NCBI GenBank assembly: GCA_018817315.1
Contig: JAHITV010000029.1
Location: 1 to 34,122, forward strand
Source of the DNA: Patescibacteria group bacterium
Lineage (GTDB): Bacteria > Patescibacteriota > Patescibacteriia > UBA1558 > UBA10009
Direction of reading: 5' to 3'
DNA: 34,122 nt
The position numbers and the translations under genes were made by a program. Position 1 is the first letter of the stretch; every line of letters begins with the position of its first letter. The notes beneath the pieces were generated by a model. That model ran no database searches. It worked only from the letters and a program-made list of their open reading frames with translations, and was not told the DNA's origin. Below, piece after piece: positions 2,798-27,569 of the stretch.

Positions 2798-3181
2798 ATG
2801 CCTAAACCAAGTAAAATTTTAATAGTTGAGGATGACGGCTTTTTACTGCAGATGTATGTTGCTAAACTGGAATTAGAAGGATATCAGATAATAGTAGCTA
2901 CTGACGGCGAAAAAGGTATGAGAGTAATTAAAAAAGAGCACCCTGATTTGATATTGTTAGATCTGCTCTTGCCTAAAAAGGATGGTTTTAAGGTTTTAGA
3001 AGAAATGAAAAATGATAGTGCTATAAAGGATATTCCGGTTTTAGTTTTGACTAATCTAGGTCAAAAAGAGGATATTGAACGGTGCTTTGCTTTAGGAGCT
3101 AAAGATTACTTAATCAAGGCGCATTTTGTACCCAGTGAGGTTATTTCCAGGATTAAATCCATTTTAGAGAGCGGTGACTGA
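2798..3181 (+). CDS. Stand-alone response-regulator receiver (CheY-like)
   Basis: A 127-residue single receiver domain with no output domain. The acidic pocket is complete: D12/D13 in IVEDDG, phospho-acceptor D55 in LLDLLLP, T85 in VLTN and K107 in YLIKAHF. It should therefore be phosphorylatable and act through protein contact, as CheY and PilG/PilH do. It lies between pilB and the pilT-like gene, which suggests it controls the motor. No histidine kinase is present in the window, so its phosphodonor must lie elsewhere. The sequence AGGATAA some 10 bases before the start is a weak possible ribosome site. Confidence 0.9.
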   Translation: MPKPSKILIVEDDGFLLQMYVAKLELEGYQIIVATDGEKGMRVIKKEHPDLILLDLLLPKKDGFKVLEEMKNDSAIKDIPVLVLTNLGQKEDIERCFALGAKDYLIKAHFVPSEVISRIKSILESGD

Positions 3182-3254: not shown

Positions 3255-4325
3255 ATGACTACCACTGAAGATTTAGCCATTAATAATATTCTTAATTCCG
3301 TGGCCGAAAGAGGAGCGACGGATATTCATTTTGCTGTGGGAAGCAATCCTTATTTTAGGATTAATGATCGTTTAATTACCTTAAGCGAAGCAAAGGTAAC
3401 TACACCGGCTTTTATGGAGACACTGATTAAATTTTTTGTGCCGGAAAAAAAACAAGAGTTGTTAAGACAAAGCAAAGAACTAAAATTTGTTTACAACTGG
3501 CTGGATAAAGCCCGTTTCAGAGTTAATGTTTTTCAGCAAAAAGGTTATTATGCTGTTTCTTTAAAATTAATTCTTCCGCAAATTAAGACCGTAGCAGAAT
3601 TAAGTTTGCCTAAGATTGTTAATTCTTTTACCGCAGTTGAAAAAGGTTTAATTATTATCAGCGGTCCTTATAATTCCGGACGTAGTACAACACTGGCAGG
3701 AATTTTAGAAACCATAAATCGTAATCGTTCCGAAAGAATTGTTTATTTGGAGAATCCCGTTGAACAGTTGTTTGTTAATCAAAGGAGTATTATTGAGCAA
3801 AGAGAAATAGGTACTGATGTAATTTCTTTTAGTGAGGGTTTACAATCCCTTAAAGAAGAGGATGTTAATGTGGTGGCAATTTCTCGGGTGGATTGCTTGG
3901 AAACTTTGGAGTTGGTTTTGGAGCTTTCGGTTTCGGGCCGTTTAGTTTTGGTTATCATGGATTATGACACTTCTTTAAGTTGTTTAACTGGTATGATTAG
4001 CGAGTTTCCCGAAGCAAAAAAAGAATGGGTGAGAAATGTTTTAGCTGACTATCTAGTTGGTTTAGTTGTTCAAAGGTTAGTGCCAGGGGTTGGGGAAATG
4101 GTTCTAGCCGCCGAAATTCTTACTGCTTCTTCCTCTTCCAAAGCTTTGATTGCCGAAGGTCGTTTTAATCAGTTAGAAAGTATTATTCAAACATCGCGGA
4201 TAGAGGGAATGATGAGTTTGGATTATTCATTAGCCAATTTGGTCAAGGCAGGCAGAATTTCCCAGGATGTTGCCTTAAAATATGCTCAAAATCCACGTAC
4301 TTTAAGTTCAATGTTAGCTAAATAA
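3255..4325 (+). CDS. PilT-family protein with degraded ATPase motifs (probable pseudo-ATPase)
   Basis: 356 residues with the PilT layout: an N-terminal PAS-like part with ATDIHF (21-26), then a RecA-like core and a C-terminal helical region. Every nucleotide-handling motif is altered. Walker A reads GPYNSGRST (137-145), with Arg143 where the catalytic Lys should be. The Asp box reads LENPVE, with Asn for Asp. Walker B reads VAISRVD, lacking the catalytic Glu. The His box (TLHTN in PilB) is replaced by VIMDYDTS. The reading frame is intact and the rest of the fold is kept, so it is unlikely to be a decaying gene. It probably cannot hydrolyse ATP and may be structural or regulatory. It sits between the CheY-like gene and pilC in the same operon. 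Confidence 0.85.
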   Translation: MTTTEDLAINNILNSVAERGATDIHFAVGSNPYFRINDRLITLSEAKVTTPAFMETLIKFFVPEKKQELLRQSKELKFVYNWLDKARFRVNVFQQKGYYAVSLKLILPQIKTVAELSLPKIVNSFTAVEKGLIIISGPYNSGRSTTLAGILETINRNRSERIVYLENPVEQLFVNQRSIIEQREIGTDVISFSEGLQSLKEEDVNVVAISRVDCLETLELVLELSVSGRLVLVIMDYDTSLSCLTGMISEFPEAKKEWVRNVLADYLVGLVVQRLVPGVGEMVLAAEILTASSSSKALIAEGRFNQLESIIQTSRIEGMMSLDYSLANLVKAGRISQDVALKYAQNPRTLSSMLAK

Positions 4326-4353: not shown

Positions 4354-5568
4354 ATGAAATTTGACTATAGAGCTAGAAATAATAAGGGTGAAATTCTTGA
4401 GGGTAAAATTGATGCTCCCAGTGACGAGGTGGCAGCTGATGTTTTAATGGAAAGAGGTTTATCCATTATTTCTTTAGAAGCAATCATTAAGCCGTCTTAT
4501 GGTAAAAGACTCCAGTTAAGGGTGCCTTTTTTTGATCGAGTAAAGAAGAAAGATATAGTTATTTTTGCGCGCCAGCTGGCAGTTATGACCTCGGCTAATT
4601 TGCCGGTAGTACAATCATTACACATTATCACCCAGCAAACCGAAAACGAAGCTTTAAAAAGTAAAATAGAAGAGATCGCTAATGAAGTAGAAAGTGGAGT
4701 AAAGCTTTCGGCAGCTTTGGCTAAATATCCTAAAACCTTTTCTTATTTTTTTATTAGCATGGTTAAATCTGGCGAGACTTCTGGTAAATTGGATGAGGTC
4801 TTGAATTATTTAGCTAATCAGGAAGAAGAGGATTATGATATGGTTGCCAAAATTAAAGGCGCTATGATTTATCCTGCTTTTATTGTCGGAGGTTTGATCA
4901 TTGTAGGAACAGCGATGATGATTTTTGTTATCCCCCAACTTACCTCAATGTTAACAGCTTCGGGAGCAGAACTTCCTTTAACTACCAGAATTTTAATCGG
5001 CACAAGTAATGTTTTTAAAAATTACTGGTGGCTTCTTTTGCTTATTCTTATTGGTTTAATAGGAATTTTTAGGTGGTTCGTTAATTCTGAATCCGGTAGA
5101 AGGATTTGGGATCTGTTAAAAATTCGTATCCCAATTTTTGGTACTTTATTTCAGAAGATTTATTTGGTTCGCTTTACCCATTCTTTAGCCACTTTAGTAG
5201 TGGGTGGTATTCCTCTTGTTGCAGCTTTAAGAATAGTGTCTGATGTTGTGGGTAATGATGCTTACCGGCGTTTGATTGATAAGACTGTTAAAGAAGTTGA
5301 GGATGGGAATTCCATTGGCACTGTTTTTTTGCGTTCCGAAATTGTACCCAAAATGGTTTCTCACATGATGGCAGTAGGAGAGAAAACAGGTCGGTTGGAT
5401 GATATTTTAAGAAAGTTAAGTAGTTTTTATAGTAGAGAAGTGAGTAACATGGTGGCAAATCTTACCCATACTCTTGAGCCGATTATTATGGTTTTAATTG
5501 GCATAGGCGTCGGCGGGATGGTTTCTGCCATTATTATGCCTATGTATCAATTAGCTAATGCTTTTTAA
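4354..5568 (+). CDS. pilC: Type IV pilus inner-membrane platform protein PilC
   Basis: 404 residues, the usual PilC/GspF length, with two T2SSF repeats (about 65-190 and 270-395) and three main hydrophobic segments (about 170-195, 220-240, 375-400). The family phrases are visible: FARQLAVMTSANLPVVQSL in repeat one and FTHSLATLVVGGIPLVAAL in repeat two, each followed by an SGETSGKLDEVL- or VGEKTGRLDDIL-type segment. It is the rotor platform on which PilB acts. It is the last gene of the motor operon; a GC-rich stem-loop follows 20 bases after the stop. Confidence 0.95.
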   Translation: MKFDYRARNNKGEILEGKIDAPSDEVAADVLMERGLSIISLEAIIKPSYGKRLQLRVPFFDRVKKKDIVIFARQLAVMTSANLPVVQSLHIITQQTENEALKSKIEEIANEVESGVKLSAALAKYPKTFSYFFISMVKSGETSGKLDEVLNYLANQEEEDYDMVAKIKGAMIYPAFIVGGLIIVGTAMMIFVIPQLTSMLTASGAELPLTTRILIGTSNVFKNYWWLLLLILIGLIGIFRWFVNSESGRRIWDLLKIRIPIFGTLFQKIYLVRFTHSLATLVVGGIPLVAALRIVSDVVGNDAYRRLIDKTVKEVEDGNSIGTVFLRSEIVPKMVSHMMAVGEKTGRLDDILRKLSSFYSREVSNMVANLTHTLEPIIMVLIGIGVGGMVSAIIMPMYQLANAF

Positions 5569-5803: not shown

Positions 5804-6289
5804 ATGAAAAATAAAAAGAAAGGTTTTACTCTTATTGAATTATTAGTGGTTATTGCCATTATTGGCTTACTTTCCACTTTAGCTGTAGTTTCTTTATCAG
5901 GCGCTCGTGCTAAAGCCAGAGATGCTAAAAGAACTTCTGACTTAAGATCAATCCAGTCAGCTTTAGAGTTATATTTATCTGAAAATGCTGTTGCTCCTGT
6001 TGTAGGTGCAAATTGGAGTGCTACTATTGGTACTTTAAGTGAATATTTACCTGGACCAATTCAGGATCCTAGTAATGGCGCTACTTATCATTACACTTAT
6101 TGCCGTAGTAGTGCCACTACTACCTCATATCTTTTGGGAACCACCTTAGAAGGTAATGCAGTTCAACCAGGAGTACAAGGTGATCCAGATACTTTATACG
6201 ATGCGGGCGATTGTATGAATAGTAATGATGGGGCTGCCCTACCTACGGCCTGTGATGCTACTACTGGATTTTGTTTAGGAAGAATATAA
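5804..6289 (+). CDS. Type IV major-type prepilin, paralogue 1
   Basis: A 161-residue prepilin. The short leader MKNKKKG is cut by the prepilin peptidase before FTLIELL; Glu5 of the mature form is present and a hydrophobic helix follows (mature residues 1-25). After the helix comes RAKARDAKR, shared with the paralogues. The C-terminal domain has the family pattern of four cysteines: YTYC in the middle, a second (GDC), then a C-terminal pair ending in GFCLG near the stop. It is monocistronic between its own strong promoter and the terminator at 6314, so it is probably the most highly expressed pilin of the array (inference). Confidence 0.93.
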   Translation: MKNKKKGFTLIELLVVIAIIGLLSTLAVVSLSGARAKARDAKRTSDLRSIQSALELYLSENAVAPVVGANWSATIGTLSEYLPGPIQDPSNGATYHYTYCRSSATTTSYLLGTTLEGNAVQPGVQGDPDTLYDAGDCMNSNDGAALPTACDATTGFCLGRI

Positions 6290-6313
6290 GTTTTGTTTGA
6301 AAAATACTCAATC

Positions 6314-6349
6314 AACCCAGCTCCGAGTTTACCGAAGGGCTGGGTTTTT
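6314..6349 (+). terminator. Intrinsic terminator after pilin 1
   Basis: Stem AACCCAGC (6314-6321) pairs with GCTGGGTT (6339-6346) around a 17-base loop, and the 3' arm runs into TTTTT. The T-tract is also the start of the -35 of the next promoter. Confidence 0.88.
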
Positions 6350-6376
6350 GGTTATAGTTTTTAATTGTGGTATAAT
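6348..6376 (+). promoter_or_regulatory. Promoter of pilin 2 with 5' stem-loop
   Basis: TTGGTT, a 17-base spacer, TATAAT with TGG before it (extended -10). The -35 overlaps the T-tract of the preceding terminator. The region just after the -10 is a perfect 8-bp inverted repeat, ATTAGGTA/TACCTAAT (6378-6397), covering the predicted start point; it may be an operator or a 5' protective hairpin. Confidence 0.7.
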
Positions 6377-6407
6377 TATTAGGTACTGATACCTAATTAT
6401 AGATATT

Positions 6408-7076
6408 ATGAAAAATAGAAAAAACATGTTTATCAATAAAAAAGGATTAACTAGACAGCAACACGGTTTCACAGTCATTGAATTATTAATAGTCATTGCT
6501 ATTATTGGTTTACTTTCCACTTTAGCTGTAGTTTCTTTATCAGGCGCTCGTGCTAAAGCCAGGGACGCTAAAAGAATGTATGATCTTAAAAGAATCGAAA
6601 AAGCTTTGCAGTTATACGAGATAGAACATGGCGTGATGCCGGCGGTTTACCCTTGGGTTCTTTGGGATGATGGCAATCGAACTAACAATAATGATATAGT
6701 TGATTTTTTAGGTAGTTATATGAACAATGATGTTCCTTTGGATGCTGGTAATGATAGTGTTTTTTTGTATTGCCGTGATACTGTTCCTGACGTCTATCCT
6801 TATAATGTCGTAAATCCGAATAAATATCTTTTGGCAGTTGGCTTAGAACAGCAAACAAACATTGTTAATGATCTTGATGGTTCAACACCATGGCAATTGT
6901 ATAGTGGCATGATAAATGAAGAATGTGTTTCTTCTATTCAAAGTACTGCACCACAGGGGTCACACCACAATGGACCGATCGATTGTGATGATGGTGCTGA
7001 TGGTAATATTTACTTAAATCCAGGAGCAATTAGTTTTAGAAATGGAACAGTTTTTTGTTTAGGGTTTAAAGATTAA
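6408..7076 (+). CDS. Type IV prepilin, paralogue 2
   Basis: 222 residues, the longest of the array. It has an unusually long basic leader (about 20 residues) ending ...RQQHG before FTVIELLIV, so processing would occur after Gly20; mature Glu5 is present. The helix and the following ARAKARDAKRM are almost identical to paralogues 1 and 4. The C-terminal part is longer and divergent but keeps the cysteine pattern: LYC, EEC, IDC and the terminal VFCLG. It shares 53 identical consecutive bases with pilin 1 (6510-6562 against 5867-5919), pointing to recent duplication or gene conversion. Terminator at 7127. Confidence 0.92.
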   Translation: MKNRKNMFINKKGLTRQQHGFTVIELLIVIAIIGLLSTLAVVSLSGARAKARDAKRMYDLKRIEKALQLYEIEHGVMPAVYPWVLWDDGNRTNNNDIVDFLGSYMNNDVPLDAGNDSVFLYCRDTVPDVYPYNVVNPNKYLLAVGLEQQTNIVNDLDGSTPWQLYSGMINEECVSSIQSTAPQGSHHNGPIDCDDGADGNIYLNPGAISFRNGTVFCLGFKD

Positions 7077-7126
7077 AATATATAATATAATAGATATCCC
7101 CGTTTGCTGCGGTTTGGTCATTCATA

Positions 7127-7163
7127 AAGAAGGATTTTTAAAAAATCGTTCTTTTATTTTTTT
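7127..7163 (+). terminator. Intrinsic terminator after pilin 2
   Basis: A 13-base arm (7127-7139, AAGAAGGATTTTT) pairs with 7141-7153 with one mismatch, followed by a T-rich tract. Its 3' arm is the first part of a 120-bp duplicated element that also contains the next promoter. Confidence 0.75.
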
Positions 7164-7261
7164 CATATAAATTGTATAATAAATTTAAAGATTTAATGAG
7201 ATTTTATTCAAAATAGTCAACTTTTTCTTATTTTTATGAAGCAACAAGAAGATGATAATTT
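7141..7261 (+). repeat. Duplicated pilin promoter/leader element, copy A
   Basis: This stretch, including the terminator 3' arm, the -10, the untranslated leader and the first codons of pilin 3, matches 8437-8557 with about a dozen differences by eye and one indel. The shared peptide start is MKQQE. The two copies define a second pilin sub-type (3 and 5) distinct from sub-type 1/2/4. Confidence 0.85.
7175..7180 (+). promoter_or_regulatory. -10 box of pilin 3
   Basis: A TATAAT hexamer 61 bases before the start codon. No good -35 is seen at 17 bases (TTTTAT), so this is supported mainly by its conservation in the second copy of the element at 8471-8476. Confidence 0.5.
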
Positions 7262-7748
7262 AAAGAATAATAATGGTTTTACTTTAATTGAATTAGTGGT
7301 AGTAGTAGCTCTTTTAGCTTTATTTATTACTTTATTTATAGTCCCTTTGAATGAAATTTTGGCTAAAACCAGAGATACTAAACGTTTATCAGACTTAGAT
7401 AGGTTAAAAACTGCTCTAATTTTATATAAATTTGATCATGAACATGTACCTTATGTTTATCTTTCTTATAATTGGCGATTTTTTCATGATGATATAGTTG
7501 GTTATTTCACAGGTTCTTTTCCAGAAGATCCTAAAAATAATCTTAGTCATAATTATATTTATTGTACTAATAGTGAAACAGATAAGCATTTGTTGGCTGT
7601 GAGACTAGAAAAGACTCCTAAAGTTTTGGGTATTGCGGGTTTTGTTAATTATTCTTTAGATGAATGTATCAGTAGTGCGCCAGAAGCTAGTCATTTACGC
7701 CCTTTGTGCGACGGGGATAAAAATTATTGTTTGGGTGATTTGAATTGA
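7236..7748 (+). CDS. Type IV prepilin, paralogue 3
   Basis: 170 residues; leader of 14 residues ending NNNG before FTLIELVVVV; mature Glu5 is present. The region after the helix (LAKTRDTKR) is a diverged version of the AKARDAKR of the other pilins. The C-terminal domain keeps YIYC, DEC, LCDGD and the terminal NYCLG cysteine. The leader and 5' untranslated region are near-identical to paralogue 5. The next pilin begins 43 bases downstream, and no terminator is visible between them, so 3 and 4 may be co-transcribed. Confidence 0.9.
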   Translation: MKQQEDDNLKNNNGFTLIELVVVVALLALFITLFIVPLNEILAKTRDTKRLSDLDRLKTALILYKFDHEHVPYVYLSYNWRFFHDDIVGYFTGSFPEDPKNNLSHNYIYCTNSETDKHLLAVRLEKTPKVLGIAGFVNYSLDECISSAPEASHLRPLCDGDKNYCLGDLN

Positions 7749-7791
7749 TTATCGGGTACCAGTAACTAGTAATTGGTAATCAGTAACAAGT

Positions 7792-8400
7792 ATGAAAAAT
7801 AAAAAAACCATGTCTATCAATAGACACAGGATAACAAGGCAGCAACACGGTTTCACAGTCATTGAGCTATTAGTGGTTATTGCCATTATTGGCTTGCTTT
7901 CCACTTTAGCTGTAGTTTCTTTATCAGGCGCTCGTGTTAAAGCCAGGGACGCTAAAAGAATGGCAGACCTTTCTACTATAAGAAAAGCTATTGAAGTATA
8001 TATCCAATATAATGAAGTACCACCAGCTTTACCTGCTACCTGGGCTGAACTAGGTGATGATGACCATCTAGGCCCTTTTTTGGGAAGTGGTGTGCCGCTT
8101 GATCCAGATAATGGCACTGATGGAGTATTTGTTTATTGTGTTAATCCAGTAAATAATAATTATCTGTTAGCCACTGCTTTATCAGAAAATATTGATATAC
8201 CAGAAGATATAGATGGCGCGGTTGCTTCTGTGGTTGGTGTAGATCATTATACTGCAATGACAGAATGTTGTTCATCTAATGATAAAACAGTGATTTTTGT
8301 TGACTGTAATGATTCAAATAACGGCGACATTGCTATTGCTAATAGTCCTAGTTTCTATTATAGAAGTGTTTTTTGTATAGGTAAGAAGAAATATCAATAA
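7792..8400 (+). CDS. Type IV prepilin, paralogue 4
   Basis: 202 residues; 20-residue leader ending RQQHG before FTVIELLVV; mature Glu5 is present. The first 60 codons are closest to paralogue 2 and the helix-coding DNA is identical over 40 bases to paralogues 1 and 2 (7897-7936). The C-terminal part has VYC, TECC (an extra adjacent cysteine), VDC and the terminal VFCIG. The 5' gap carries repeated GTAAC/GGTA words but no convincing promoter. It ends at the terminator at 8417. Confidence 0.9.
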   Translation: MKNKKTMSINRHRITRQQHGFTVIELLVVIAIIGLLSTLAVVSLSGARVKARDAKRMADLSTIRKAIEVYIQYNEVPPALPATWAELGDDDHLGPFLGSGVPLDPDNGTDGVFVYCVNPVNNNYLLATALSENIDIPEDIDGAVASVVGVDHYTAMTECCSSNDKTVIFVDCNDSNNGDIAIANSPSFYYRSVFCIGKKKYQ

Positions 8401-8416
8401 ATTAATTATTTTCAGA

Positions 8417-8460
8417 AAGAATGATTTTTATTTTTTAAAAATCGTTCTTTTATTTTTTTT
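8417..8460 (+). terminator. Intrinsic terminator after pilin 4
   Basis: 13-base arms (8417-8429 and 8437-8449) pair with a single U-G wobble around a 7-base loop and run into a T-rich tract. It is homologous to the terminator at 7127. Confidence 0.82.
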
Positions 8461-8557
8461 ATAAAAATTGTATAATAAATCTAGGAATTTAATGAGATTT
8501 TATTCAAAATAGCCAATTCTTTCTTAATCTTTATGAAGCAACAAGAAAATAATAATT
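8437..8557 (+). repeat. Duplicated pilin promoter/leader element, copy B
   Basis: Second copy of the element at 7141-7261; it contains TATAAT at 8471-8476 in the same position relative to the start codon and the same MKQQE protein start. Confidence 0.85.
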
Positions 8558-9099
8558 TGACGAATAGTGGCTTTACCCCGCAGCAGCAGGGGTTTACTTT
8601 TATAGAAATGTTAGTAGTTATAGTTATTATTGGAATTCTTTTAACATTGGCTTTGATGTTTTTGAGTGGTTCAAGAACTAGGGCTAGAGACACTCAAAGG
8701 TTTTCTGATATTAAAACTGTGCAAGCAGCCATAGAATTATATATACAAAACAATGCTCAAAAATTACCTCCTGGCTTAGGCGTTGATTATGAATTAACAG
8801 ATTATGATTGGAATGATTTAAGGACTGATTTATTTCCTTATTTGGAAAATAGTGAATTACCGCGAGATCCTAGGGAGGATGACGGCTACTCTTATTCTTA
8901 TTGCGCTTACCGTCATAATTATCTTTTAGTAGCGGTAATGGAAAATAATCAGGATATTGATAGTGATATTGATAGTGATCCTGGATATGGACCCATTGAC
9001 TGTACTTCAAATACATTAGATTGTAATGATAATGGTTTAGGACAATTAGCCGGTAAAACAGGATCGGTTTTTTGCACAGGACTTTTAAAAAATCAATAA
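8533..9099 (+). CDS. Type IV prepilin, paralogue 5
   Basis: 188 residues; 20-residue Gln/Asn-rich leader ending PQQQG before FTFIEMLVV; mature Glu5 is present. The post-helix region reads TRARDTQR. The C-terminal domain has YSYC, a second cysteine (IDCTS), LDCND and the terminal VFCTG. It belongs to the same sub-type as paralogue 3 by its promoter and leader, but its C-terminal half is unrelated in detail, so the gene looks like a constant head with a variable body. It is followed by a terminator and the prepilin peptidase gene. Confidence 0.9.
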   Translation: MKQQENNNLTNSGFTPQQQGFTFIEMLVVIVIIGILLTLALMFLSGSRTRARDTQRFSDIKTVQAAIELYIQNNAQKLPPGLGVDYELTDYDWNDLRTDLFPYLENSELPRDPREDDGYSYSYCAYRHNYLLVAVMENNQDIDSDIDSDPGYGPIDCTSNTLDCNDNGLGQLAGKTGSVFCTGLLKNQ

Positions 9100-9199: not shown

Positions 9200-9991
9200 A
9201 TGATTATGATAATTACGGTTATTATTATTGGAATTCTTGGTTTGATTATTGGAAGTTTTTTAAATGTAGTAGTTTATCGGTTAAAAAAAGGGGGTGAAAT
9301 AGTTTGGCGTCGTTCTTATTGTCCTAAATGTGAACATTCACTAAATTACCGTGATTTAGTACCACTGTTCAGCTTTTTATATATGGGTGGTAAGTGCCGT
9401 TACTGTCACAGTGCTATTTCTTGGCAGTATCCTTTGGTTGAATTAACAACTGCCATAATTTTTATTTTAGGTTATTTAAAATATTTATACCCCTCCTCAA
9501 TCCTTGAGGGTAATGCAACTGATCAACTTTTGGTTTATGTAACTTTTTTAATCTTCAGCAGTTTTTTGCTAATTATTTTTGTTTATGATTTAAAGCATTA
9601 TCTTATTTTAGATAAAGTGACAATACCGGCTTTAATAGTTGCTTTAGTTTTAAATTATTGGTTAGGAATGCCTTTACTGAATCTGATCTTGGCTGCAGTA
9701 GTCGTGGCAGGGTTTTTTCTGCTGCAGTTTATAGTTTCTGCTGGTAAATGGATAGGCGGGGGAGACATTCGTTTGGGTTTAGTGATGGGAGTAATGCTGG
9801 GTTGGCCGAAAGTGCTGGTAGCTTTGTTTTTGGCTTATATCTTAGGAGCAGTGTTGGGATTAAGCTTAATAGCTTTAAAGAAAAAACAGTGGCATAGCCA
9901 GCTGCCTTTTGGTACCTTTTTATCCTTAGCCACAGTTATTACCCTGCTTTATGGGGAAGGTTTATTGGCTTGGTATCTTTCGTCAATTTGA
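9200..9991 (+). CDS. pilD: Prepilin peptidase / N-methyltransferase PilD
   Basis: 263-residue polytopic membrane enzyme that cleaves prepilin leaders after Gly and methylates the new N-terminus. The N-terminal domain carries the CPKC (41-44) and CRYC (66-69) zinc tetrad of the bifunctional type. The two catalytic aspartates are D130 in VYDLKH and D189 in GGGDIRLG. Its substrates are the nine prepilins encoded on both sides. The start is either ATG 9200 or, if the transcript is leaderless, ATG 9206 (two residues shorter); the membrane helix begins at once in both cases. Confidence 0.95.
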   Translation: MIMIITVIIIGILGLIIGSFLNVVVYRLKKGGEIVWRRSYCPKCEHSLNYRDLVPLFSFLYMGGKCRYCHSAISWQYPLVELTTAIIFILGYLKYLYPSSILEGNATDQLLVYVTFLIFSSFLLIIFVYDLKHYLILDKVTIPALIVALVLNYWLGMPLLNLILAAVVVAGFFLLQFIVSAGKWIGGGDIRLGLVMGVMLGWPKVLVALFLAYILGAVLGLSLIALKKKQWHSQLPFGTFLSLATVITLLYGEGLLAWYLSSI

Positions 9992-25583: not shown

Positions 25584-26561
25584 TTAATTCAAAACATTAA
25601 TCAATTCCTTAAACCCTTTTGTATTAACAAAATAGTTTTGTCTATTTTTTCTCAAATTTTGTTTAATATTTTTAAGTTGATTTAATATTTTTCCCTTTTT
25701 AAGATACTTTTTATTAGCAAAGAGATTGAAATATAATCCGTCTAAAAATGAAATATAGTGAATTTTCGAATTGTTTTCGCTAAAACCTATAAACGATATC
25801 ACCTCGTTAATTTGTTTGTCCTGACCGCCACCACCTTCTTTCATATGTTTATGTTCGACAATAAAAATATCATCTCCGTTTTTTATTAAAAAATCTGGCA
25901 TTTTTTGCTCCTTCTTTTTGCTCCATGAAAATTTTATCTTATAATAACATAATAAATTTTTAAAAAGCTTTTTTCCTTTTTTATCCGCTTCAATATATTT
26001 TTTACCGCTTTGCGAGATAAAATTTTCTAATGTCTCGGCGTTAGCTTTTTTATACCCAGCTTTATCTAAAATTTTAGAAACTTTATAAATACCTAGATTG
26101 TCGCTTTCTTTATGCGCTTTTGCATCTTTTCCGACTTGCAATGTGGTGGGCGTATAACCATAAGATGAATAAATATCATGTCTTAATTCAATATATTTTT
26201 CAACTATATTTTTTATAATTTTAAATTGATCCTCTGGTTCAATTTTACAAAAAAGACTATATGAAATATCTACCACCGGCCAGAAAGAAACAAATTCAGA
26301 GTAGTTTATGTTTTTGCTTTTTACTATTTCTAAAATTTTTTCGAGAGCCTTTTTTAAAGTTGCTTGATTTTTATTCTTTTTAGCGAAGTTATAAGCTGAA
26401 ATGCTTTCAAGTAGATCAAAATTTTTCTTCATTAAATCGGTTTGTATTTTAAGGTTATTTGATATAATTAAATTTCCGTTTTTTAAATAAAATTCATCGA
26501 TAATCGGCTCTGGATTATTGAGTGAAAATTCAAATAATTTTATATTGTCGATTGTTTTCAT
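25584..26561 (-). CDS. Probable type II restriction endonuclease (PD-(D/E)xK fold)
   Basis: 325 residues. The N-terminal two thirds are Lys/Asn/Ile-rich and helical without recognised motifs. Near the C-terminus is P222-D223 followed twelve residues later by E236-x-K238 (MPDFLIKNGD...VEHKH), the classic PD-(D/E)xK nuclease site, and then a Gly-rich GGGGQDKQ segment. The partner methyltransferase gene lies directly upstream on the same strand, three bases away. The recognition site is not predictable. Low-GC, Asn/Lys-rich composition suggests acquisition by transfer. Confidence 0.78.
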   Translation of the reverse strand: MKTIDNIKLFEFSLNNPEPIIDEFYLKNGNLIISNNLKIQTDLMKKNFDLLESISAYNFAKKNKNQATLKKALEKILEIVKSKNINYSEFVSFWPVVDISYSLFCKIEPEDQFKIIKNIVEKYIELRHDIYSSYGYTPTTLQVGKDAKAHKESDNLGIYKVSKILDKAGYKKANAETLENFISQSGKKYIEADKKGKKLFKNLLCYYKIKFSWSKKKEQKMPDFLIKNGDDIFIVEHKHMKEGGGGQDKQINEVISFIGFSENNSKIHYISFLDGLYFNLFANKKYLKKGKILNQLKNIKQNLRKNRQNYFVNTKGFKELINVLN

Positions 26562-26564
26562 AAG

Positions 26565-27569
26565 TTAAAATAATTTTAATCTTGAACCTGGGTAAGCAAG
26601 CTCATAGGCATCTTCCAAAAATGCTCTGGCAGTCATGTAATCAAGCCTTCTTCTTCTTTCTCCATTTTTTTTATTTCCTTTGAATGGAGACAAAAGCACG
26701 TCATAAGTTTTTTTTCTAAAATCAAAAAGCATTTGATTGCTATATTTAATTATTTTGTCAATCGCCTGATCATCGGCTTTTACTTCAATTACAGTTATTA
26801 GCCTTGAGCTATGTTTAATATCAGCTAAATCATAATCAATTTCTTTTGGCTTCATGAAGGAAATAGGTTTTTGGGGATTTGTCGTGTCTACTGCCCGTAA
26901 AGCAATTTGTCCTTTCTGCGCATTAAATTTTATGTAAATATTTTTGTGTGGTGTTCTGCGCATTTTTTCAAAATATTCTAGCTTTCCAATTTGTTCATCA
27001 TTTTTATAAACATCAATTTGATCATAAGTCTTATTTTTATTATCAAAACAAATTACGCAAACTGGATTTTCTGTATCATTGAATAATTGATCTTCGATTA
27101 TAGTAATACTAACTAACCTATTTTTAGGAAATCTTGAATTAATAAAAGTTTCAGGAATAATCATAATCCCAAAATCATTTTTCAGACACTTTTCAATCGC
27201 CAATTGATAAATATCATCATAACTACAAACATCAAAGTATTGTTTTACATTTTTATAAATTCCTTTTCTCTTGGCACTATAATTTGTTAAATACGGTGGA
27301 TTGGTAATAGTAATAGAATTTTTAATTTTTGGGATACTCAAAAGGCTATCATTCTGTTCCCAATTTAAATTTTTGTCTATATCAAGTCCTTTGATTTTTT
27401 TAAATCCAATTTTTTGGGCAACATTTAGCAAATCACCACCACCAGCAAATGGATCAAAAGCAATTCTAGTGTTGGTCGATTTTATAAATTCTAAAATATG
27501 ATCTTTTAGCCAAAAATCATTTTTTGTAAAAAATTGCCCTAAACTTCGTTTTTTGATAATCGCATTCAT
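26565..27569 (-). CDS. DNA adenine-N6 methyltransferase (type II, gamma-like)
   Basis: 334 residues. Motif X-like GQFFT (11-15), AdoMet motif I FDPFAGGGD (38-46), motif II acidic GLDID (61-65) and motif IV NPPY (90-93) appear in that order, the gamma arrangement of N6-adenine methylases. The target-recognition part lies in the C-terminal half. It precedes the nuclease gene on the same strand, so protection is made before restriction. Composition is lower in GC than most neighbours. Confidence 0.85.
   Translation of the reverse strand: MNAIIKKRSLGQFFTKNDFWLKDHILEFIKSTNTRIAFDPFAGGGDLLNVAQKIGFKKIKGLDIDKNLNWEQNDSLLSIPKIKNSITITNPPYLTNYSAKRKGIYKNVKQYFDVCSYDDIYQLAIEKCLKNDFGIMIIPETFINSRFPKNRLVSITIIEDQLFNDTENPVCVICFDNKNKTYDQIDVYKNDEQIGKLEYFEKMRRTPHKNIYIKFNAQKGQIALRAVDTTNPQKPISFMKPKEIDYDLADIKHSSRLITVIEVKADDQAIDKIIKYSNQMLFDFRKKTYDVLLSPFKGNKKNGERRRRLDYMTARAFLEDAYELAYPGSRLKLF

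Follow-up and report, generated by a model that had tools for sequence, protein, structure and literature searches.

The operon-encoded PilT of a Patescibacteria group bacterium has lost the Walker A lysine, the catalytic glutamate, and both HIS-box histidines of its family, and its degenerate motifs are not a matter of chance, because they recur in every pil-operon copy that we examined in its class. The best-supported general statement that can be made of the gene is that it encodes a PilT-type pseudo-ATPase that is folded, under selection, and part of this pilus machine; a conserved "dead" motor of this sort suggests a structural or regulatory role. The window (the whole stretch of DNA analysed, 34,122 nucleotides) is contig 9 of a genome in 54 contigs (1.05 Mb, 92% complete), and the gene lies at positions 3255–4325 on its forward strand.

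An altered active site in a whole PilT fold

The open reading frame at 3255–4325 (+) starts with ATG and runs for 356 codons with no internal stops. Its 356-residue product scores 272 bits against TIGR01420 (pilT_fam), under the curated cut-off of 319.1 bits, and is therefore filed as a divergent relative rather than as a PilT motor; its identity to solved PilTs is about 30%. The AlphaFold2 model, predicted from a 22-sequence alignment, has a mean pLDDT of 89.9; its best PDB match by Foldseek is Geobacter PilT4 (E 2e-39), and VIA-align superimposes it on PilT4 6okv_D over 354 residues (Z 44.7, rmsd 2.1). As modelled, the product is a whole PilT fold, with an N-terminal PAS-like domain and a RecA-like C-terminal domain, and no fragment.

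The catalytic motifs, all read by alignment to canonical PilT, are altered in much the way that an earlier, sequence-only reading of this DNA had described: Arg143 (3681–3683) stands in place of the catalytic Lys in the Walker A motif GPYNSGRSTT (3663–3692), Asn167 replaces the Asp of the Asp box ENPVE (3750–3764; LENPVE with the preceding residue), and Arg211 (3885–3887) occupies the site of the catalytic Glu that normally follows Walker B. In the HIS box (3939–3962), for which that reading had named a replaced Thr-Asn, the loss is greater than claimed, as both histidines are gone (Arg229 and Asp236). Its statement that every ATPase motif is changed holds for the Lys, the catalytic Glu, and both His, but not for the P-loop glycines, Ser144/Thr145, the two Asp-box glutamates (E166 and the Mg-type E170), and Arg89, all of which are retained. 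Arg89 (3519–3521) corresponds to the first arginine finger, as judged from the 15-residue spacing of PilB R271/R286 (PMC5424180); at the equivalent of the second, Arg has become Lys104 (3564–3566). The C-terminal QTSxxxGM motif (Q312–M319; 4188–4211) is conserved.

The catalytic residues of PilT-like ATPases have been called completely or highly conserved in family surveys (PMC5424180), and the Walker A Lys, the catalytic Glu, and the HIS-box His are reported necessary in the PilT-like ATPases tested (PMC5424180, PMC5065972); one Asp-box Glu coordinates Mg in PilB (PMC5424180). Given these motif losses beside the kept P-loop glycines, Ser144/Thr145, and Asp-box Glu, we infer that catalysis should be lost in the window protein, whereas the binding of nucleotide and Mg may be preserved.

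The gene lies in a pilus operon, all of it on the forward strand. Upstream are pilB (998–2749), assigned to the extension ATPase by motifs and profile matches and canonical in GPTGSGKST, GEIRD, and LSTLHT, as had been noted earlier, and a gene for a stand-alone CheY-like receiver domain protein (2798–3181; PF00072) with D55 and K107. Downstream are pilC, encoding the platform protein of the same operon (4354–5568; PF00482, TIGR02120), a run of prepilin-like ORFs with type IV prepilin N-termini (5804–6289, with a match to PF07963, 6408–7076, 7236–7748, 7792–8400, and 8533–9099), and pilD, the prepilin peptidase gene (9200–9991; PF06750, PF01478). Three of the prepilin-like ORFs within 5804–9099 are almost the same at their N-termini (FTxIELLxVIAIIGLLSTLAVVSLSGARxKARDAKR), a sign that pilin genes may have been duplicated in tandem.

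Two further loci of the window lie outside the pilus genes. The segment 21131–24110 encodes a tandem pair of PF02579 (dinitrogenase iron-molybdenum cofactor) proteins together with an NADH-oxidase-like flavoprotein and a MinD-type ATPase that carries ferredoxin domains, a gene cluster that is unusual in a 1-Mb genome. The gene at 25584–27569 on the reverse strand weakly matches Eco57I/type II methyltransferases (NPPY motif) and adjoins a 325-aa ORF with no Pfam match, which may be a candidate restriction partner.

Conservation and descent across the class

We surveyed 100 distinct copies, drawn from 100 genomes in 39 families of the class that holds the window genome and the degenerate copies, which we take to be probably Patescibacteriia/ABY1; the genomes are representatives of uneven completeness. 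Degenerate motifs are present in 100/100 of these copies and in all 39 families. Position 143 is Arg in 76 copies, Lys in 20, and another residue in 4, so that replacement of the Walker A Lys by anything but Arg is rare; Glu at position 211 is kept in 35/100; and the first and second HIS-box histidines are kept in 1/100 and 2/100, respectively. At least one of Lys and Glu is lost in 88/100 copies, and 12/100 keep both. Glu170 (99/100), Glu166 (97/100), and the P-loop G137 (100/100) are kept. The HIS-box replacements are patterned, not random: position 229 is Arg or Lys in 79 of the 100 copies, and position 236 is Asp, Glu, or Asn, likewise in 79.

Within the window's order, orthologues at 34–58% identity occur in most genomes, and the first 29 to be aligned all have Walker A SGR and lack the Glu and His (29/29). 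Of the 26 invariant columns of the order alignment, seven lie within Walker A and the Asp box, which together span 19 columns (P 1e-4), and one lies within Walker B and the HIS box, which together span 28, a depletion that is not significant. Omega is 0.03–0.15 in close pairs, Arg-P-loop pairs included (Nei–Gojobori; the values are approximate, many dS being high or saturated), and the reading frame is open in essentially all copies. A single-genome oddity is ruled out by the same degenerate motifs in relatives, and a recent pseudogene by the open frames and the low omega.

The sequence-only reading had proposed a conserved pseudo-ATPase, and had named intact catalytic residues in sister genomes, or dN/dS near one with frameshifts, as marks of recent decay instead. 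The copies in related genomes of the class are likewise degenerate (100/100), which speaks against recent decay; omega is nowhere near one and the frames are open; and the second, intact PilT for which it had advised a search is encoded on contig 51 of the same genome (424 bits against TIGR01420). The proposal of a conserved pseudo-ATPase, as opposed to decay, is thus borne out. A second, canonical-type PilT occurs in all sampled carriers but five (two in fragments). One of the five, G065 (L182, L223; 99% complete, six contigs), has a degenerate PilT and PilBs, and no canonical PilT was found in it. The operon PilT and the stand-alone PilT share about 31% identity. In the single-PilT genomes examined, PilT lies outside the operon with no pilC nearby, and with pilB once, at a distance.

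A search of the whole collection with the single protein returned no relatives; an alignment-based search returned mostly canonical PilTs from other phyla, which can serve as outgroup. In other classes of the phylum, the PilT beside pilB and/or pilC is canonical in 28/28 loci, mostly with GHGKST, GEMRD, and TLH, and a study of Saccharibacteria describes a PilT with normal ATP sites (PMC12206443), which fits another class being canonical. In a 99-row tree, a short search like our other trees and with ten stand-alone class copies, the degenerate copies group as a single clade (SH-aLRT 99) within the operon-PilT clade (95), on branches longer than those of canonical copies, and the stand-alone canonical PilTs of the class form a separate clade (100). 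The degenerate copies again form one clade (100) when the catalytic columns are masked. The window gene belongs to the pil-operon PilT orthologue group of the phylum (joint clade, SH-aLRT 95; located between pilB(-cheY) and pilC) and would be the descendant in place of the phylum's original pil-operon PilT. As the masked tree requires two to three changes for HIS-box loss, at least ten for Lys/Arg, and 17 for Glu, its history is most simply read as a single loss of the HIS box on the class stem, after which the Walker A Lys and the catalytic Glu would usually have been lost too, by repeated later erosion. Horizontal import of a dead copy is disfavoured, because the dead copies nest inside the phylum's operon-PilT clade.

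Gene order ties the degenerate copy to the pilus assembly genes. In 100 class loci, pilB adjoins it in 90, cheY in 78, and pilC in 91, some of the remaining loci being contig ends. Operon-type PilC (E below 1e-90) is found in 82/86 carriers versus 98/200 other genomes (Fisher P 7e-16, a test that ignores kinship; 286 class genomes, unfetched pilT copies scored as absent). The order pilB-cheY-pilT-pilC also occurs in other classes, there with a fully canonical PilT, and cheY is kept in operons that have no pilT. A partnership of the CheY-like protein that is specific to the dead PilT, as had been suggested, is not favoured by either observation, from which cheY would instead be part of the ancestral operon.

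Degenerate or partly altered copies also occur in other settings. In family f57 (L165, L186; also L166, L181), a degenerate PilT with the Walker A Lys lies outside the pilB-pilC operon; in L165 and L186 it adjoins a PilM-like gene, and pilB-cheY-pilC lie together elsewhere. In a Clostridia MAG, a second PilT-like gene (L144:2088–3116) directly upstream of pilB has an altered HIS box (TGKLVLASYD) and keeps the Walker A Lys and Glu, perhaps an independent onset of the same process.

Possible roles of a presumed non-motor ring

Because the dead PilT retains the complete fold of its family, together with the P-loop backbone, the Mg-type Asp-box Glu, and the C-terminal motif, it most likely still makes a ring, presumably a hexamer, which may bind nucleotide with little or no hydrolysis. 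We suggest that this ring docks on the PilC platform of its own operon's pilus as a non-motor ring, and that it links or restrains the stand-alone PilT, thereby setting the timing and manner of pilus retraction; the retraction motor in nearly all carriers would now be the second, canonical PilT encoded elsewhere. The proposal has its precedent in Vibrio PilT/PilU and is a tentative one, to which we give slightly less than an even chance. In V. cholerae, PilU-driven retraction persists when PilT is mutated in Walker A, Walker B, or both (K136A, E204A, and the double mutant) but not upon deletion of pilT (PMC6821130), and PilT is regarded as the link between PilU and the machine whether or not it is itself functional (PMC12607626). 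Conservation in one clade, the omega values, linkage to pilB and pilC, co-occurrence with operon-type PilC, and the PilT fold all count for a docking ring. An unusual control of pilus retraction by a dead PilT, as the sequence-only reading had imagined, is plausible.

Several observations count against a docking ring. Three genomes (G107, G261, and G233) have operon-type pilB(-cheY)-pilC without pilT in between, which means that the stand-alone PilT manages on its own in some genomes and that an adaptor is not obligatory everywhere, and the five carriers in which no canonical PilT was found (G065 included) fit poorly with a pure adaptor for canonical PilT. Residual activity is possible in the 12/100 copies that have both Lys and Glu; the family f57 gene lies beside a PilM-like gene, away from pilB/pilC; and in Pseudomonas, PilU failed to restore motility with a Walker B-dead PilT (PMC12607626). 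A stronger form of the docking-ring proposal, that the class has split its retraction motor into a fixed, non-hydrolysing, perhaps nucleotide-sensing operon ring and a separate engine PilT that works through this ring, is more doubtful, and we think it rather unlikely. If true, such a split would amount to a naturally occurring PilT/PilU linkage, with one gene for the adaptor and another for the engine.

The main rival to the adaptor reading is a brake that holds the pilus out: the dead ring would take PilC instead of PilB or PilT, and the pilus would stay extended and static, for example during host attachment, until the ring is displaced. The same conservation, fold, and operon-linkage results agree with a brake, and strong conservation by itself cannot tell it from an adaptor. 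Vibrio E204A PilT, thought to be ATP-locked, gives hyperpiliated cells with rare retraction (PMC6821130), and cultivated relatives bind their hosts by type IV pili (PMC12206443); on balance we judge a brake unlikely, though deserving of serious weight. We give considerably less credence to co-assembly of dead and stand-alone PilT subunits into mixed hexamers that would reduce or modulate retraction power. Both proteins have the PilT fold and coexist in nearly all carriers, but their identity is only about 31%, and PilT and PilU, at over 40% identity, form homohexamers (PMC6821130, PMC13142100).

Equally improbable in our estimate is an atypical but active ATPase, in which the P-loop Arg and other residues would substitute for those lost and nucleotide would be turned over slowly. 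The persistence of the P-loop glycines, the Ser/Thr, the Mg-type Glu, and finger positions that are for the most part basic would suit such an enzyme, as would the 12/100 copies with both Lys and Glu and the partial function of a PilT H229A mutant (PMC12607626); the window protein, however, has Arg for the Lys, Arg at the catalytic Glu, and no HIS-box His, all of which are reported to be needed (PMC5424180, PMC5065972). Some genomes have lost pilT cleanly from the operon, and the degenerate copies have the longer branches, which could be taken to indicate a redundant paralogue that has been decaying since the second PilT took over, but the omega of 0.03–0.15, the open frames in essentially all copies, the P-loop and Asp-box residues invariant across the order, and retention in 39 families already disfavour this reading in most lineages and make it very improbable.

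Known systems and significance

The window protein resembles PilT, the type IVa retraction ATPase (TIGR01420), in fold, length, pil-operon place, Asp-box Glu, C-terminal motif, and identity (~30%), and differs from it in the absence of the Walker A Lys, the catalytic Glu, and both HIS-box His and in its score below the family cut-off. It resembles PilU in being a second PilT paralogue beside a canonical PilT and in its PilT fold (PilU 9n32, Z 41.1). PilU, however, is an accessory ATPase with an active site that needs PilT as its link, whereas the catalytic residues are absent from the window protein and it is the operon copy that is presumably inactive, as though the two had exchanged roles. 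FlaH and TadZ are P-loop proteins that attach to type IV filament machines without serving as motors, but these belong to P-loop subfamilies other than PilT, and FlaH 4yds is a distant fold match to our model (Z 11.6). A further likeness is to the ATPase-dead PilT of V. cholerae, with which a paralogue can still power retraction (PMC6821130) and which is, as is expected here, a non-hydrolysing PilT; those, however, are laboratory mutations, whereas the present changes are natural, fixed in the class, and include loss of the HIS box. Our literature search, confined to open-licence papers and hence a weak indication of absence, turned up no naturally occurring pseudo-ATPase PilT shared by a whole clade.

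The label "retraction ATPase" is probably wrong for this gene in roughly a hundred of the genomes sampled. A natural pseudo-ATPase that spans the class and sits in a pilus operon indicates that the PilT fold can be retained for a non-hydrolytic purpose, and offers a natural test of an idea based so far on laboratory mutants, namely that PilT doubles as a dock for another motor. The observation is also relevant to the control of pili in uncultured, probably host-dependent bacteria, whose pili may bind their hosts.
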